This document shows, in pieces, positions 24,862-33,042 of a stretch of 64,000 nt of DNA. Position 1 is the first letter of the stretch; each line of letters begins with the position of its first letter. The notes beneath the pieces were generated by a model. That model was not told the origin of the DNA. It saw only the letters and a list, made by a program, of their open reading frames with translations, and did no database searches. This DNA comes from a virus, in the IMG/VR virus record IMGVR_UViG_3300032397_000006, positions 1 to 64,000 of that record. One strand, written 5' to 3'. Position numbers and translations under genes: made by a program.

Positions 24862-26262
24862 TTACAGCGAGCCCGCAGCGCGGCCGATGTTCTTGAGCAC
24901 CACGTTTTTCGCGGGCGCGTACATCTTGATTGCGCCGTACAGCACCTGCGCCCAGCGAATGGAGGTGTCGATGGTAGCAAGAGGGATACGGGTCATCGGA
25001 AGTAGCTGAGACCACGAAAAGCTCTGCTGATTCTGCATGACGACGAAACCCTTGGTCGTGCCCGGAATGTCGCCGTTCAAATCGGTCACAACTTGCGTTG
25101 CGCCCGTGCGCGCAACGCGCGTCGCCATCTTCGCGGTGGCTGCTGCGCCGTTCTTGTCCGAGCGATAGATCTCGTAGGCCGTGGGCGCCTGCCCGCCGTC
25201 CTGAATCGTGAAGGTCACGGCATCGCCAGCGACCACCGCGACCGCTGCGCTCGTGACAGGGACCGACATGCCGTAGCGATTGATCGCGACGACCTTGTAG
25301 ATGTACGTGCCCGCGTCGCCCGCGACGAACTTCGAGGCCGCGTTCGCACCCGCTGCCGGTGCCACCGTGATGGTGGGCGCGAGCGGGCGACGATCGGTGC
25401 GGCCGAGACCTGCGTCGAGGCCCAGCTGACCAGCCTGAATGAACACGTGGTCGTGCAGGTTGATCCGGCCATTCTGACCTTGAAACGCCGTCACCGTGGC
25501 GCCGAGCACGCCGGGTGCAGGCGCATAGGCGAACCGCTGCCGGTCGTAGACCTGCTTCGCAAGGTCGCTGAATGCACCCGTGGCGAAATAGCCATCGGTC
25601 GCGACACCGAAGTTGTCGCGGATCAGCAGCAGCACATCGTTCAGATTTTCTTCGGTCAGCGAAGCGCCGCGAAGATCGATCACGTTCTGCGGAGCGCCGT
25701 CGAGAATGAGTTTCTCGAGCCCGTCGATCTGCTCGGGAATCATGGAGCTGTCGCCGAAAAAGAGGGCGTTCTCAAGCATCTTGAGAAGCTCCATCGTCTT
25801 GTTCATCGTTTCCATGGCGATCACGTTGCCGTGAGCGGCCCGGATCACGTTGGCCACATGCGTCACGCGGCCCGTGATGCCAAGGAACTTCACGAGCACG
25901 GGAACGCGCTGGTAAGTCGAATCTTCTTCTTCGGGCAGATCACCCTCAGGCATCCACCCGAGGTTGAATCGACGCGTGCCCGCTTTGCCGTAGCTCAGCA
26001 GTCGGTTGAATTCCTCGACCGTGTTGGTGGCCTGCACCTTCGGAATCGTCTTGAACAGCTTGATCTCGTCCATCTCGAAAGTGAGATTCTTGAGCGTCGA
26101 CTCAAGACTCTGCGGACGCAGCGGAAAGCCTTCACCGGGAGCGACGCCCGGATCCGTTACCGCGTTGCCGGCGTAGAGCGCTTTTCTGAGCTCTGCGATC
26201 TCGTCAGGACTGGACGCGCCGAATCCGTTGTAGTCGCGCGCGGAAACCATAGGTGCCAACAT
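24862..26262 (-). CDS. Major capsid protein
   Basis: This 466-aa protein is encoded after protease and scaffold genes and carries features of a capsid protein: EELxKxL-type N-terminus, FNLGWMPEGDLPEEEDSTY, RVPVLVKFLGITGRVTHV, and a long helical backbone (NKTMELLKMLENALFFGD). Residues ~300-390 look like an inserted Ig/fibronectin-like domain (GTYIYKVVAINRYGMSVPV, PTAYEIYRSDKNG). Residues 34-54 nearly match a segment of the prohead protease (AVTDPGVAPGEGFPLR), which suggests a maturation site, with cleavage at or near it. GGGAGA precedes the start. By family it assembles into the icosahedral shell. Confidence 0.85.
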   Translation of the reverse strand: MLAPMVSARDYNGFGASSPDEIAELRKALYAGNAVTDPGVAPGEGFPLRPQSLESTLKNLTFEMDEIKLFKTIPKVQATNTVEEFNRLLSYGKAGTRRFNLGWMPEGDLPEEEDSTYQRVPVLVKFLGITGRVTHVANVIRAAHGNVIAMETMNKTMELLKMLENALFFGDSSMIPEQIDGLEKLILDGAPQNVIDLRGASLTEENLNDVLLLIRDNFGVATDGYFATGAFSDLAKQVYDRQRFAYAPAPGVLGATVTAFQGQNGRINLHDHVFIQAGQLGLDAGLGRTDRRPLAPTITVAPAAGANAASKFVAGDAGTYIYKVVAINRYGMSVPVTSAAVAVVAGDAVTFTIQDGGQAPTAYEIYRSDKNGAAATAKMATRVARTGATQVVTDLNGDIPGTTKGFVVMQNQQSFSWSQLLPMTRIPLATIDTSIRWAQVLYGAIKMYAPAKNVVLKNIGRAAGSL

Positions 26263-26327
26263 GTCAAATCTCCCTGGTAATTAATCTTTGTTCGGTCGCG
26301 TGCGCGACTGGAAATTGGAAGGTGCGA

Positions 26328-27221
26328 TCAGGCGTAGCGGCGTGCGGCGTCTGCCTCGTTGGGATTCTGCGCAAGGAAGCTGCGCGCTGCGTGAATGACG
26401 CCATCGTCGATCACGTCGCCCGCTTCGAAGCGACCGATGATTTCCGACGTGCGCACGCCGTTGATGTCGCGAATTCCCTTTTCGAGATTCATGTAGCTGA
26501 GCGTCGAGAGCAGTTCGCTCTTACGCAGCTGACCTGCCTCGCCTGCCTCGTTGGGCATGCCCTTACTGAGGGCCTTCGCGCCCGAGAGCTGCGTGCGGCC
26601 CTTCGGCTGTGCCACCGGAGCGCGCTCGACGATTCCGAGACGGCTGCGGAGCTCGTCGATCACGCCGGCCTGAGACTTGAGCAGCTGCCCGCTCTGGTAA
26701 ATCGCAGCGGCCATCGCGCGATTGACCTTCGCCTGCTCGCCGCGGTGTGCGCCCAGGCTTTTCTCGAGCGAGCCGAGCGCATCGGTCGTGCGCGCGACGA
26801 GCGCGTCGAGGAAGGGAGAAACGTCAATCGCTTCTGCGACCGTGGGATCCGAGGCAATGCCCTTGATCAGATCACCCTGTGCCGAAGATTTCGACGTGAA
26901 CGGGGGCTGAGGGACCTTGCCCTCGTCGTCCTCGTCACCGTCGTCCTCGTCTTCGTCGTCGTCGTCCGCCATGAAGGCGGCGAAGTTCGCGATCGTGCCC
27001 GCGTCGATTCCTGCCGCGGTCATTTTCGCGATCATGAGCGCGTCGAGCCCGCCCGCGTCGCTCATCGAACCTTGCCCGCCACCGGAGGGCTTGCCATCGG
27101 ACATAGTGCCGGAGTTTGCGATCTGCACGCCGTCGCCCTTCGCAAGCTTCGTTGCGTCCGCGACTTTGATCAGATCGGCGAGGCTCTTTTCAAGCTGAAT
27201 TGTGTCGACTCTATCGGCCAT
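26328..27221 (-). CDS. Capsid scaffolding protein
   Basis: This 297-aa protein lies between the protease and the capsid gene, where scaffolds are expected. It has an extremely acidic stretch near residues 84-101 (DDDDEDEDDGDEDDEGK), helical segments (DALVARTTDALGSLEKSLG, QLLKSQAGVIDELRSRLG) and a basic C-terminal third with KSELLSTLSYMNLEKGIR. Scaffolds guide capsid assembly and are removed by the protease. No sequence family is obvious, so the call rests on order and composition. Confidence 0.65.
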   Translation of the reverse strand: MADRVDTIQLEKSLADLIKVADATKLAKGDGVQIANSGTMSDGKPSGGGQGSMSDAGGLDALMIAKMTAAGIDAGTIANFAAFMADDDDEDEDDGDEDDEGKVPQPPFTSKSSAQGDLIKGIASDPTVAEAIDVSPFLDALVARTTDALGSLEKSLGAHRGEQAKVNRAMAAAIYQSGQLLKSQAGVIDELRSRLGIVERAPVAQPKGRTQLSGAKALSKGMPNEAGEAGQLRKSELLSTLSYMNLEKGIRDINGVRTSEIIGRFEAGDVIDDGVIHAARSFLAQNPNEADAARRYA

Positions 27222-27226
27222 TTTCC

Positions 27227-27943
27227 CTAGTCCTCCGCGCGATGATTTCGCATCGCAAACTCCACGATTTTCACCGCAGCCTCTGCGCTTAACGCAGGCT
27301 GCAAACTCTTAAGCAGCGCGACCGCTTCGGCCTTACGCATGCGTCTGCGCTTCTTCTTTCGCAGCGGCTCCCCGCCCTCGAGCGACTGCCGGCGCAAAGG
27401 GAAGCCCTCGCCCGGGGCAACGCCTGGATCCGTTACCGCGCTGCCTGCAGAGAGCGACTTCGCAAGCACCTGTAATGCCGTCGCCTCGTTCACGGGGCAG
27501 CGTGTGATCGCCACCTCGCGCACGACGGCCTTACGCACGATCTTGGGATTGCTCGGGTCGCGCTCGACGACGGTACCTTCGACCGAGAAGCCAAGGCGTC
27601 GATCGCTCTTTTGCAGAGAGCGAGCGAGATCCCAAATTCGATCCGCGCGAGCCGTCCCTTTCAGGAGATAGCCCTCGACATACCACCCACGGTGCCCGCC
27701 CGAGAGCTCGCGGAGCTCGACCTTTGCCGGATACCCGAGCACCGCGTCCGTGTCCGCGCTGTGGTTGTCGTTAAACCAGCCAGACTTGAGAAAAGGCCCG
27801 AAATCTAGGCCTTCCTGCAGCAATACCTCAGACTGCCTGTCGAGGTTGTCTGTCGACACGATCCCCGCGATGCGTCGATCCCGATCGCCCTCGCCGGCTT
27901 TCTCGAAAAACTCTGCATCCAGATCGAATGAAAAGTGCTGCAC
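27227..27943 (-). CDS. Prohead maturation protease (HK97-type)
   Basis: I place the start at GTG 27943, which follows AGAGGGG; a TTG eight codons upstream lies close to a hairpin and is less likely. The 238-aa protein has the protease fold signs: IAGIVSTDNLDRQSEVL, a candidate catalytic His in FNDNHS (~residue 60), a Ser in LGFSVEG (~123), and VREVAITRCPVNEAT. The C-terminal part holds a 21-residue block nearly identical to the capsid N-terminus, then a very basic stretch (RKKKRRRMRK). By family it processes the scaffold and the capsid N-terminus; the shared block is likely a cleavage or docking site. Confidence 0.8.
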   Translation of the reverse strand: MQHFSFDLDAEFFEKAGEGDRDRRIAGIVSTDNLDRQSEVLLQEGLDFGPFLKSGWFNDNHSADTDAVLGYPAKVELRELSGGHRGWYVEGYLLKGTARADRIWDLARSLQKSDRRLGFSVEGTVVERDPSNPKIVRKAVVREVAITRCPVNEATALQVLAKSLSAGSAVTDPGVAPGEGFPLRRQSLEGGEPLRKKKRRRMRKAEAVALLKSLQPALSAEAAVKIVEFAMRNHRAED

Positions 27944-27972
27944 TGAACCCCTCTGGTAGGGGCCCAAAACGG

Positions 27973-29146: not shown

Positions 29147-30889
29147 TCAATCTCGCAACGCGTCTGCATACGAGCGATGCACAAATCCGAACGTGCGCGG
29201 AAAATTGGCGCGCAAGAACGGTCGCGCGTACAGGTACAGGCGCGAGCACTCGGCCGCGTTTTCGATCGGCTCGCGCCTCGCGTAATTCGATACGTAGCCT
29301 TCGGCGCGGCTGAGCTCCCATAGTTCCCGGTGCCAAGCATGCACGCGATCGATGTCTCGATCGAATTTCTCCCACAGCCACACGTTCAGGGAGTGCCCGA
29401 TCTCGTGCTCGAGCACGCGCCGCACCTTTTTCAACGGTAAGGTCTGCATGAGTCGTATTTCGTTCCCGCTCCAATACGCGAGATCGTTCGACTTGAGCGG
29501 CGTCGTTTCGCGATCGGTGTCTGTCGTGATCAGCGTGACGCCTCGACCTCGCCGAAATACGGCTGCAGGCGTTGCAGCAACCACAGCGTCTACGATCTCT
29601 CGAGTTGCCGGATCCGCGACGCGGATAGCCACTCCATCCTCCGGTACGCTCGCGCTCATGCTCGCTGGCTTTTCGTACCAGGTTTGCGCTTTACGCAAAT
29701 TCCGATCGAGCAGCTCTGATCGCGTGAGGCTTTCGGGTACGAGATTTCCGAATTCGTCGAAGCCCCACCCCTCAGGCACGCGCACTAATGCGCACGCGCA
29801 CCAAGGATGCACGGGCTGCACTGTTGCTAGCCAGTCGCGCGCTTTTTTGCCAACGTTTGATCCGTTGCCAATGAGCTCTGCAAGCTTGAAAATGCGAGGG
29901 GGCGAGCCTTGCCCCGCCGTAAGATGTAGTCGAACGCAGTGGTCGCACGCGGTTGGTGACGGAATCTTCGCGACCGAAATAGTTTCCGGATCACCATGCC
30001 TTTTTACCATTTCTCGCGCCTGACCTTCCTGCATGGCGCGTTGTTTTTCCGTAGCTGCGATTCGACCTAGATCACGACTCCAATCGCCGGAGGCGTCGCC
30101 GAGCTCTGAAATGATCGTACGCCACGCGGTGCGCTGCCGTAGCGAGCGATCAACAGCGTCGGTCACGTCCTCGTGCGTGAGCGACGACACCGTGTCTGTG
30201 ATCGTGCTCGTGAGATCCGCCTGCATGCGTTGACTCAGCCCGCGCACGTATTCTGCTGCATGCTCCTCGTTGAAGGAAAGCGCCTCGCGCTCGGCCTGCG
30301 TGAGCGGCAGATCGCGCCCTGTCCATGCAAAGGTCTGCAGACTGAGCGCATGCTGCTTTTCTTGCTCCCCCATAGGCGCGGCAGCCTGAGCCTTACCGTA
30401 TTGATACGCCGTCGTGATCATGCGCTGAGCTGTTGGCGGAAGCTCTCCGGGTTTCGGCTGCAGCACGTAGGCCAGATCCTCAGGCAGGATTCCGAGATCG
30501 ATCAGTCGCGCGAGCTCTCCGTGGTGGAGCAAGCGCGGATCGATCATTCCCGCGATGAAGGCCTCGTGATAGTCGCCGATAATTTTCTTGATCTCTTTCA
30601 TCTGCGCGGGCGAGACGAGCACGAAGTCACCGACTGAAAATGGGCGCTCTGCTTTCTCGAGCGGCCCGTGGGTAATGTGCTGCTCAACCCACGTACGAAT
30701 CGCGGCAATCATGCGCGCGTAAATCGCCGCGTACGCACTGATCGCGTGCAGGTGCAGGTCGCGCATAACGCGGTGCGAGTGCCACGTTTTCGAGTCGCGC
30801 TCGTACTCTGCTTTCAGTAGCTGCCCCGGGATAATGGCTTGCGCGATCTCGATCGGCATGAGGTTTGCGGGAGCTGTTACGCGGATCAC
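29147..30889 (-). CDS. MuF-like head protein fused to zincin metallopeptidase
   Basis: This 580-aa protein has three parts. The N-terminal ~300 residues are helical. Residues ~305-385 carry the MuF signature: CDHCVRLHLT and, about 60 residues later, HPWCACALVRVPEGW. Residues ~455-580 form a metallopeptidase-like domain with HEIGHSLN (HExxH, ~490-497), then SNYARREPIENAAECSRLY, resembling the conserved end of lethal-factor-like zincins. MuF proteins bind near the portal and may be injected; C-terminal enzyme domains are known in toxin-type MuF proteins. The GTG start overlaps the upstream methyltransferase stop. The HExxH and MuF cysteines are visible; peptidase activity is inferred. Confidence 0.75.
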   Translation of the reverse strand: MIRVTAPANLMPIEIAQAIIPGQLLKAEYERDSKTWHSHRVMRDLHLHAISAYAAIYARMIAAIRTWVEQHITHGPLEKAERPFSVGDFVLVSPAQMKEIKKIIGDYHEAFIAGMIDPRLLHHGELARLIDLGILPEDLAYVLQPKPGELPPTAQRMITTAYQYGKAQAAAPMGEQEKQHALSLQTFAWTGRDLPLTQAEREALSFNEEHAAEYVRGLSQRMQADLTSTITDTVSSLTHEDVTDAVDRSLRQRTAWRTIISELGDASGDWSRDLGRIAATEKQRAMQEGQAREMVKRHGDPETISVAKIPSPTACDHCVRLHLTAGQGSPPRIFKLAELIGNGSNVGKKARDWLATVQPVHPWCACALVRVPEGWGFDEFGNLVPESLTRSELLDRNLRKAQTWYEKPASMSASVPEDGVAIRVADPATREIVDAVVAATPAAVFRRGRGVTLITTDTDRETTPLKSNDLAYWSGNEIRLMQTLPLKKVRRVLEHEIGHSLNVWLWEKFDRDIDRVHAWHRELWELSRAEGYVSNYARREPIENAAECSRLYLYARPFLRANFPRTFGFVHRSYADALRD

Positions 30890-31812
30890 CGGGCACTCGC
30901 AATTCTGCGCTCTGCTATTTCGGCAAATTCTGCCTGCTGCTCAATGCCGACGAAGTAATAGCCCTCGAGCGCTGCTGCTTTTCCTGTGCTGCCACTACCT
31001 GCGAACGGATCAAGCACAATGCCTCCCTGCGGCGTCACGAGGCGCACTAGGTAGCGCATTAGTGCCGTAGGCTTGACGGTAGGGTGGCTATTGCCGGCGC
31101 CGCGATCAGAGCTACTCGCGCGAGCACAATAAAAAAATCGAGCTGCGCTTCCTACGTCTTTTCGCGCGACGCAGGGTGCGTTTTTCGCAAAGGTACCAAA
31201 CGTGTTTTTAGTTTTACGCCCGTTGTCTGATCGATTCGCTAACTGCCCAGGAGCATCAGGGAACGCAGCGAGCACTTCAAGACTACCATCGTGCAGCACG
31301 TTCGTAGGCCAGCGACATCGCGTGCTGTCTTCTACAGGCACGCGCGCAGTTTCTATATTCAGTCCGCCCGTACCGTACCGCGCCTTGTTATTCTTGCGTG
31401 TCCCGCGCGCCGGCTTTCGCGCCAAAACAATCGGCTCATATGCGGGTTTCAAGGCCTCTACTGATTTCGGGAATCCAGACCCGTAAATCCACATCAAGCA
31501 ATCTCGGATCTCCCATCCAGCAGCTTCGATCGAGGTCATCATTTTGTGGTGCGTGCGCGTGCCGCCGAACGCGAGCAAATGAGCGCCTGGCTTGGCAACA
31601 CGTAACACCGCGCGCCACGTGTCCACGTCAAACGCAATGCCCGTGCTATCCCATTTCGCGCCCATAAAGCCGCCCGTGCCGATACGCGCACGACCTGCGG
31701 GCGAATTGAGATTCCCCGACGTCAGGTCGTAAGGCGGATCGGTCACAACAGCATCGAAACTGTTTTCGTCGAGTAGCGGCAGCTGCTCTCGCATGTCCCC
31801 GTGAATCAGCAT
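30886..31812 (-). CDS. DNA methyltransferase (DPPY class)
   Basis: This 308-aa protein has the two hallmark motifs. The catalytic TDPPYD (~residues 24-29) comes first and the AdoMet-binding DPFAGSGST (~266-274) follows near the C-terminus. This order marks a beta-class amino-methyltransferase acting on adenine N6 or cytosine N4. The middle holds the target recognition region. No restriction enzyme is next to it. By family it methylates phage or host DNA and could protect against restriction. It overlaps the MuF gene by 4 nt. Confidence 0.85.
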   Translation of the reverse strand: MLIHGDMREQLPLLDENSFDAVVTDPPYDLTSGNLNSPAGRARIGTGGFMGAKWDSTGIAFDVDTWRAVLRVAKPGAHLLAFGGTRTHHKMMTSIEAAGWEIRDCLMWIYGSGFPKSVEALKPAYEPIVLARKPARGTRKNNKARYGTGGLNIETARVPVEDSTRCRWPTNVLHDGSLEVLAAFPDAPGQLANRSDNGRKTKNTFGTFAKNAPCVARKDVGSAARFFYCARASSSDRGAGNSHPTVKPTALMRYLVRLVTPQGGIVLDPFAGSGSTGKAAALEGYYFVGIEQQAEFAEIAERRIASAR

Positions 31813-31827
31813 GCCGCGCAGCCTACC

Positions 31828-32307
31828 TCAGCCCGGGACGTGCGAGTTGTCGATCCAGCCGCGCGCGTGAGAGGCTGCCACGTCGAATCCCGGGTCACCT
31901 GCTACCAGCACTCGGCCCGAGCGGTGCCTGACCGCCACACGCCCAGGGACGCGCTCCCAATCGTCGTCAGGGAGCTCGGGAGGCATCACGCTTTTCGGCG
32001 CCTGCGTAACAGGTTCGGCTCGTAGCCCGTCGCGCCAGTCGAACCACGCGATAAACAGCACGTTGCAGGTCGCGTGTGCGAGGTGCGGCAGTCCGGTCTC
32101 CGGATCTAGGAGCTCGCCCCTACGCCACGCAACGAGGTGCCTCTCTACTGCGCCGAAATACTGCTCGCGCGCGTTCGGCACTTTCTGCCAATTCCAAGGC
32201 TCGTATTTGTTGGCCCCGTACCACAGTACACGCACGACGTCGCGAACCTGTTCCCACGGTAGAAGCTGCCACGGCTCTTTATCTCGAAATTCTTTAAAGC
32301 CTTGCAT
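31828..32307 (-). CDS. DUF5664-like (dATP/dGTP diphosphohydrolase-like) protein
   Basis: This 159-aa protein has the typical pattern: LLPWEQVRDVVRVLWYGANK, then YEPWNWQKVP, AVERHLVAWRRGELLDPETG and LPHLAHATCNVLFIAWF. These repeated Glu/His/Asp positions fit an all-helical nucleotide-pyrophosphatase-type fold. The C-terminal ~45 residues are an extra beta-like tail. I recall the family as dATP/dGTP diphosphohydrolase; activity is not shown by the sequence alone. It lies next to an HD hydrolase, suggesting a nucleotide-metabolism pair. Confidence 0.65.
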   Translation of the reverse strand: MQGFKEFRDKEPWQLLPWEQVRDVVRVLWYGANKYEPWNWQKVPNAREQYFGAVERHLVAWRRGELLDPETGLPHLAHATCNVLFIAWFDWRDGLRAEPVTQAPKSVMPPELPDDDWERVPGRVAVRHRSGRVLVAGDPGFDVAASHARGWIDNSHVPG

Positions 32308-32312
32308 CCCGT

Positions 32313-32873
32313 CTATCTATCACTGAACGCGGCGTGTGCCTCGATCAAGCTCGCGTAAAGGCCCTCGACATTGGATCGATTGCGAGCTCGCTCGAGTGCT
32401 GCGCTGCCGACCAACAAACTGCGCGCCTTGAATCGAGCGATCCGATCCTCCGGCCAATCGGGAGCGTAACGTTTCAGATCGCGGAGATTCGCGATCTTGT
32501 CCGCGAGCTTTACGCAGCGCACGAGATCCGAGGTCTCTGCGCGCAACATCACGCCGATCTGGTGATCGGTTTTCGCGGTGCCCTTCACGTGCGGATCGGT
32601 AGTGAGCAGCTGGACGTCGCGCGCGATGTCCTCGCTAAACTCGCGTGCGATTTCTCGATAGCCGTAGGGAGTGTCCTCGATCACGTCGTGCAGAAACGCG
32701 ACGACGTAGACCTCGTTGCCGAGCATGCGTGGCGCGAAACTCCCGCGCAGGATCGAAACTACGTCGCACGGGTGCTGTAGGAACGGCACGCCCTCAGCGC
32801 CGTCGCGCACCTGCCCGCGGTGCGCCATCGCGGCAAATTCCAGAGCCTTTAGAACGTCCTCAGTTCTGTGCAC
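32313..32873 (-). CDS. SpoT-like HD hydrolase (possible alarmone hydrolase)
   Basis: The start is taken as GTG 32873, preceded by GGAAGG at good spacing; an ATG at 32954 would overlap the previous gene by 95 nt. The 186-aa product shows the RelA/SpoT-HD pattern: AAMAHRGQ, PFLQHPCDV, a FLHDVIEDT motif (HD plus ED) and RCVKLADKIANLRDL. These match the metal-binding and catalytic residues of small alarmone hydrolases (MESH1-type). By family it would remove pyrophosphate from ppGpp-like nucleotides. It is the last gene before the DUF5664-like gene, 5 nt away. Confidence 0.75.
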   Translation of the reverse strand: MHRTEDVLKALEFAAMAHRGQVRDGAEGVPFLQHPCDVVSILRGSFAPRMLGNEVYVVAFLHDVIEDTPYGYREIAREFSEDIARDVQLLTTDPHVKGTAKTDHQIGVMLRAETSDLVRCVKLADKIANLRDLKRYAPDWPEDRIARFKARSLLVGSAALERARNRSNVEGLYASLIEAHAAFSDR

Positions 32874-33042
32874 GGCTACCTTCCATTCCGCTTCCACCAC
32901 CCGCACCGCCTTTGGCCTTTGCTCGGAGACACGCCCTCCCGTCCGGGCGATCATGATCTCGCATGAACGCAGCCCAGTTCTTACTCCAAGTTCGAACCTT
33001 GCAATGTGGACATTGCAGCCTGCTGTCTTTCTTTTCCATCGA
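32860..33042 (-). CDS. Small zinc-knuckle protein (60 aa)
   Basis: Starts MEKKDSRLQCPHCKVRTWSK at ATG 33042, with GAAGGGAAGG upstream, the same ribosome site seen before other accessory genes. One CPHC pair and a distal Cys (RACLRAK) are visible, with His and Asp (RDHDRP) between, so a C2HC-like zinc site is possible. The C-terminus is Gly-rich. A nearby promoter repeat (33065-33091) probably drives it. Confidence 0.55.
   Translation of the reverse strand, partial: SMEKKDSRLQCPHCKVRTWSKNWAAFMRDHDRPDGRACLRAKAKGGAGGGSGMEGSRAQN

Follow-up and report, generated by a model that had tools for sequence, protein, structure and literature searches.

The major capsid protein and the prohead protease encoded in the window, i.e., the whole stretch of 64,000 nucleotides analysed here (positions 1 to 64,000 of IMG/VR virus record IMGVR_UViG_3300032397_000006), share a sequence block that on balance probably combines a cleavage site with a docking peptide downstream of it, by which the protease would pose as the N-terminal arm of the capsid protein, enter the procapsid, and free itself by cutting. 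To our knowledge, the entry of the prohead protease into the procapsid and its release after assembly are poorly understood in most phages. For a large group of them, including SPO1 and relatives of K and P100, sequence alone suggests an answer, namely a tag that copies the capsid arm together with a releasing cut. The analysis also yields a predicted cleavage rule, [LVIM]-x-K↓[S/A] (the arrow marking the cut), for capsid, scaffold, and protease, and offers, in the block, a natural peptide that might serve to load enzymes into heads of this kind. Within the literature searched, no published description of the shared capsid/protease block was found; a protease tag that copies the capsid protein itself is new within that literature, and a capsid-targeting protease tail was already known.

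The head genes lie on the minus strand in the order protease (27967-27227), scaffold (27221-26328), and capsid (26262-24862). The features referred to below are as follows.

27227 to 27967, minus strand: prohead (head maturation) protease gene, 246 aa, SPO1 gp3.2 / phrog_1028 family
27464 to 27898, minus strand: protease catalytic domain, residues 24-168, confidently modelled by AF2, H69 and S128 invariant
27458/27457, minus strand: predicted protease self-cut K170↓S171, with a hydrophobic-x-K-[SA] site in nearly every relative
27377 to 27466, minus strand: extended shared block, protease residues 168-197, 25/30 identity, containing the predicted self-cleavage site
27377 to 27439, minus strand: 21-residue shared block, protease residues 177-197, pLDDT mostly below 50, an exposed flexible segment in the model
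27341 to 27361, minus strand: polybasic stretch RKKKRRR past the block, residues 203-209, read from the sequence and recurring in close relatives
27245 to 27334, minus strand: C-terminal helical hairpin of the protease, residues 212-241, AF2 pLDDT about 95, with a similar tail in relatives
26328 to 27221, minus strand: scaffold gene, 297 aa, between protease and capsid (phrog_15087, E = 1e-4), with candidate K-S sites and no block
24862 to 26262, minus strand: major capsid protein gene, 466 aa, SPO1 gp6.1 / phrog_752 family, HK97 fold
26101 to 26190, minus strand: extended shared block, capsid residues 25-54, 25/30 identity, the predicted mature N-arm running from A28
26182/26181, minus strand: predicted capsid cut K27↓A28, homologous to the phi812 chain start, K27 being present in every capsid arm aligned
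26101 to 26163, minus strand: 21-residue shared block, capsid residues 34-54, 20/21 identical to the protease copy

The capsid protein matched phrog_752 at E = 5.6e-91 over residues 13-460, and its AF2 model was closest to the SPO1 capsid 9vel (E = 4e-38, TM 0.75-0.79), i.e., it has the HK97 fold. Since the best capsid matches among phage records are only about 35% identical, the phage of the window falls outside known genera. The protease was assigned through phrog_1028 (E = 7e-44); against Pfam Peptidase_S78 it scored 16.5 bits, under the cut-off of 21, and no sequence relatives were found among PDB structures. Its model resembles herpesvirus proteases (1o6e and 4v07, E = 6.7e-4) at a low TM of 0.36-0.39, and the invariant H69 and S128 are predicted from the alignment to be catalytic. 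Residues 24-168 of the model are folded, residues 171-201 have a pLDDT mostly below 50, and residues 212-241 form a confident helical hairpin; residues 27-60 of the capsid model are likewise below 50. Both copies of the block are thus probably exposed linear segments that order only on a partner, low pLDDT being weak evidence for this. The hairpin that follows the polybasic stretch may contact DNA or scaffold.

Several neighbouring genes, all on the minus strand, were recorded alongside. A MuF-like minor head protein (29147-30889) ends in a C-terminal HExxH (zincin-like) domain, which had a weak, sub-threshold match to Pfam ATLF (E = 0.06); the relative SBSphiC has a similar head protein, whose listed frame is without such an end. 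A DNA N6/N4 methyltransferase (30886-31812; PF01555, E = 7e-32) adjoins the head genes, and a protein with a dATP/dGTP diphosphohydrolase N-terminal domain (PF18909, E = 2e-29) adjoins an HD-domain protein (HD_4, E = 8e-11) at 31828-32307 and 32313-32954. No PurZ-type adenylosuccinate synthetase was found in the record.

The near-identity of 21 residues between capsid and protease, noticed by eye in the original prediction, proved exact in extent and coordinates, with 20 of 21 residues identical and capsid P50 against protease R193 as the single mismatch. The likeness extends upstream to L25 of the capsid and L168 of the protease. When the two proteins alone were compared by BLASTP, capsid residues 25-54 and protease residues 168-197 agreed in 25 of 30 positions (E = 2e-12), which is far beyond chance, and nothing of note was found in the remainder of the two otherwise unrelated proteins. 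Across the 104-kb record, the block is present in these two genes only.

A comparison of related phages, which had been proposed as a check, found the block to recur widely, in Herelleviridae and in many Gram-negative relatives. In Herelleviridae (SPO1, P100, G1, EFLK1) as in the Gram-negative relatives, the protease carries a copy of its own capsid's N-terminal arm just past the catalytic domain; the SPO1 block reads KSLEAGYEVDPEKMEGGDVFRKESLD in the protease and KALEAGHTVNPLDLEGGGAFRVESLE in the capsid. Both proteins also carry the block in SEP1, Eldridge, Goe3, Iacchus, LysYB1, Exiguobacterium phage 132, Pseudomonas phages Jeremy and Touem01, and Bordetella phage PHB04. An HMM of the capsid arm searched against 9,317 ORFs of the fetched loci returned only capsids and proteases below E = 3, and it hit 56 of 118 protease rows, many of them near-duplicates, at E < 1e-5 and 67 at E < 0.1. 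Exactly two copies, in capsid and protease, were present in 18 of 22 whole phage records and the capsid copy only in three; apart from a third, weak 10-residue match in the remaining record (G005, E = 0.04), no other tagged head proteins were found in these 22. The block is not essential in every lineage, since it is degenerate (z < 5) in about one third of unfused relatives (those with separate protease and scaffold genes) and absent from two of them, Bacteroides phage DAC19 (L037) and L157.

The start of the extended block coincides in both proteins with a site of the form [hydrophobic]-x-K↓[S/A]. In the window, this motif reads LRK27↓A28 for the capsid and LAK170↓S171 for the protease, both cuts being predicted from sequence. 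For phi812, S25 is the first residue of the deposited capsid chain (9row) and directly follows VVK24. For SPO1, the longest chain in 9vel has 445 resolved residues out of 468, a length compatible with A24 as first residue behind LNK23, by arithmetic on chain length rather than by the deposited numbering. In the scaffolds, the dipeptide K-S occurs 219 times against 66 expected, a 3.3-fold enrichment whose z-score of 21.7 is inflated because the scaffolds are related, whereas S-K is not enriched; L, V, I, or M stands at P3 in 168 of the 219 sites. The proteases contain 66 K-S against 26 expected. The cleavage rule is accordingly based on dipeptide enrichment among related scaffolds and on the chain starts given by the depositors. 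The enrichment of K-S with a hydrophobic residue two positions before K was seen in the window's scaffold (26328-27221, minus strand) and in those of loci L031-L049, where such sites are probable maturation sites. In nearly every protease, a hydrophobic-x-K-[SA] site follows soon past the catalytic domain, and the block lies 0 to about 45 residues further on.

The mature capsid thus probably starts, by the sequence motif, at A28, six residues before the 21-residue block. The original prediction had read the block as a cleavage or docking signal and had named a mature capsid starting before it as counter-evidence. Such a start is probable, and it argues only against the block being the scissile site: the likely cleavage site lies just outside the 21 residues, which correspond to P7'-P27'. 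The docking half of that reading is the better supported one, because in 18 divergent capsid/protease pairs the coupling between the two copies amounts to 2.35 over P1-P4' and to 25.0 from P5' on, about tenfold more, and because scaffolds have many K-S sites without a block. The coupling lies mainly at P5' to P30', which is too far for a cleavage signal alone and further than the active site of a protease usually reaches.

One old duplication alone would have left each protease block no nearer to the capsid of its own genome than to others; the blocks are nearer, so the copies track each other. In the 18 divergent pairs, which were included irrespective of their own score, the own-genome excess was 30.7 (permutation sd 3.8, p = 1e-5), compared with 1.1 for shuffled arms. 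Own-genome likeness exceeded cross-genome likeness over 82 pairs (p = 5e-5), and tracking persisted within groups linked at a capsid identity of at least 65% (2.8 per pair, p = 2e-4). At the position of capsid Q51, which is Q or E, a capsid Q pairs with a protease Q (counts 7, 1, 2, and 34; Fisher p = 7e-6, uncorrected for phylogeny). The per-column coupling table was built from pairs with an own score of at least 55 only and is biased towards coupling, and the unfiltered tests were relied on instead. As far as co-evolution goes, the partner may be the capsid, the scaffold, or the protease itself.

A functionless origin of the likeness, by recent duplication or by gene conversion from one neighbouring gene to the other, is very improbable. 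In its favour, a distance of about 1.2 kb separates the two blocks within a single gene cluster, the capsid block of the window differs from those of its closest relatives in the direction of the protease copy, and codon agreement is in excess in two relatives (L092 and L097), but codon agreement at identical residues is at chance both overall (387 agreements seen, 368 predicted by codon usage) and in the window (10 agreements at 24 residues, against a prediction of 10.2), on which grounds recent DNA duplication was largely refuted and rejected; moreover, the block spans very distant phages and is tracked at all depths. Together with the within-genome tracking, the chance-level codon agreement indicates that the likeness is kept by selection on the protein rather than by recent DNA copying. 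Selection might act on a tag for a chaperonin or another host factor common to both proteins, a notion that has in its favour only the T4 precedent, a role proposed for the gp23 N terminus with GroEL in a title cited by PMC10052503. We give it hardly any credence, as the block varies strongly between phages while being matched within a genome, unlike a tag for a conserved host factor, and as it lies in the arm that the mature capsid retains. The block could instead be recognised as a whole by the protease, through active site and exosite, since this enzyme would cut both the capsid and itself; the cleavage motif at the block's edge in both proteins, the K-S enrichment in scaffolds and proteases, and the phi812 chain start at the site all agree with such an extended signal. 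We consider it rather unlikely, because the many K-S sites of the scaffolds come without the block, the coupling lies mainly beyond P4', and several relatives, among them L094, L100, and L101, have R at the block's own P1 and keep a K↓S site upstream, so that cleavage site and block are separable.

An unlikely but more serious candidate is a scaffold-binding element, i.e., capsid and protease would bind the scaffold by the same peptide and be carried into the procapsid by it. The scaffold gene sits between the other two, and a shared scaffold site explains the coupling equally well. It also accounts for the phages in which protease and scaffold are fused. Such fusions were found in 43 of 48 scored loci of a clade that we call Bacteroidota-type, after Chryseobacterium phage MA9V-3 and Bacteroides phage DAC19; in most of L133-L212 and in MA9V-3 itself (L035), the protease-scaffold is one ORF directly upstream of the capsid gene. 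A search with the fused MA9V-3 protease sequence itself found no relatives, and these were gathered via the capsid instead. Fused proteases mostly have a reduced block (median z 0.8, n = 43, against 12.4 in the 80 unfused proteases of the main set), a comparison that is confounded with phylogeny, DAC19 and L157 being unfused yet blockless. L158, an unfused member of the clade, has a near-perfect copy, KAMVAGDITGKDTTDKVLTQEPLKEESVD against the capsid's KAMQAGQITGRDTTNQLLTQEPLKMESLD (z = 20). Reduction of the block in fusions and a full copy in L158 also speak for docking as such, being the pattern to expect where the block brings in a protease that lacks a scaffold of its own to ride on. Against scaffold binding, the fused clade keeps the capsid arm while the protease copy shrinks, the arm remains in the mature capsid once the scaffold is gone, and 8 of the 39 capsid columns that are invariant lie in it, as contacts within the shell would lead one to expect. 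A third copy of the arm, suspected by eye in the window's scaffold (KALSKGM...LRKSELL), was dropped, as no capsid arm was found in the scaffolds (median z −0.06; window scaffold 2.5).

As the arm persists in the mature capsid and ranks among its most conserved parts, we favour the capsid shell over the scaffold as the docking partner, and with it the reading in which the protease mimics the capsid N-arm. The flexible tail directly behind the catalytic domain would imitate the arm, which would form the start of the mature capsid protein after the cut at K27↓A28 and pack in the shell. The protease copy would take an equivalent site in the growing procapsid, making the enzyme a kind of minor subunit of the shell. 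After closure of the shell, it would cleave the scaffold, the capsid propeptide, and its own tail (at K170↓S171), each at hydrophobic-x-K↓[S/A] sites. The last of these cuts would release the catalytic domain from its tether; we infer both this self-cut and the order of events. Proteomics of virions has detected some of the protease in particles of this phage family (PMC5618024, PMC12282133, PMC3601020).

Among known systems, the SPO1/Twort/P100-type head module of Herelleviridae has the same gene order, capsid and protease families, and shared block, and the phage of the window differs from it in lying outside the known genera. In encapsulins, a short peptide on the enzyme docks inside an HK97-fold shell, Family 1 being without the extended N-arm (PMC8346489). 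The arm core does not significantly match the encapsulin targeting peptide consensus SDGSLGIGSLKRS: GALGIQSL of phage Jeremy against GSLGIGSL of the consensus is a weak likeness (shuffle test, p = 0.11). A wider reading, that imitation of the N-arm serves generally to load enzymes into HK97-fold shells and that encapsulin targeting peptides descend from such a protease tag, appears improbable as a whole; its first half fits all data here, and a descent of the encapsulin peptides could be argued from this weak likeness only.

In T4, a short capsid targeting sequence near a protease site brings proteins into the prohead (PMC5694885). This N-terminal propeptide of 10-20 residues is cleaved off, whereas the tag in the window is C-terminal to the catalytic domain (residues 168-197) and copies a retained arm, the capsid copy starting at the predicted mature N terminus. 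C-terminal autocleavage of giant-phage proteases (SPN3US gp245, phiKZ) recalls the putatively removable C-terminal part of the window protease, and the C-terminal region of gp245 has been inferred to target the enzyme to the prohead (PMC5694885); the cleavage motif there is A-x-E, unlike K↓[S/A], and within the passages covered no likeness to a capsid arm is reported. In herpesviruses, a cut in the C-terminal extension of the protease/scaffold (UL26-UL26.5, UL80) severs the connection with the major capsid protein (PMC10145422). The fused protease-scaffold of the Bacteroidota-type clade recalls this arrangement; the window encodes the two in separate genes, and no capsid arm was found in its scaffold. 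The herpesvirus protease and the modelled window protease have the same fold, and the extension is shared with the scaffold in the former and with the capsid protein in the latter.
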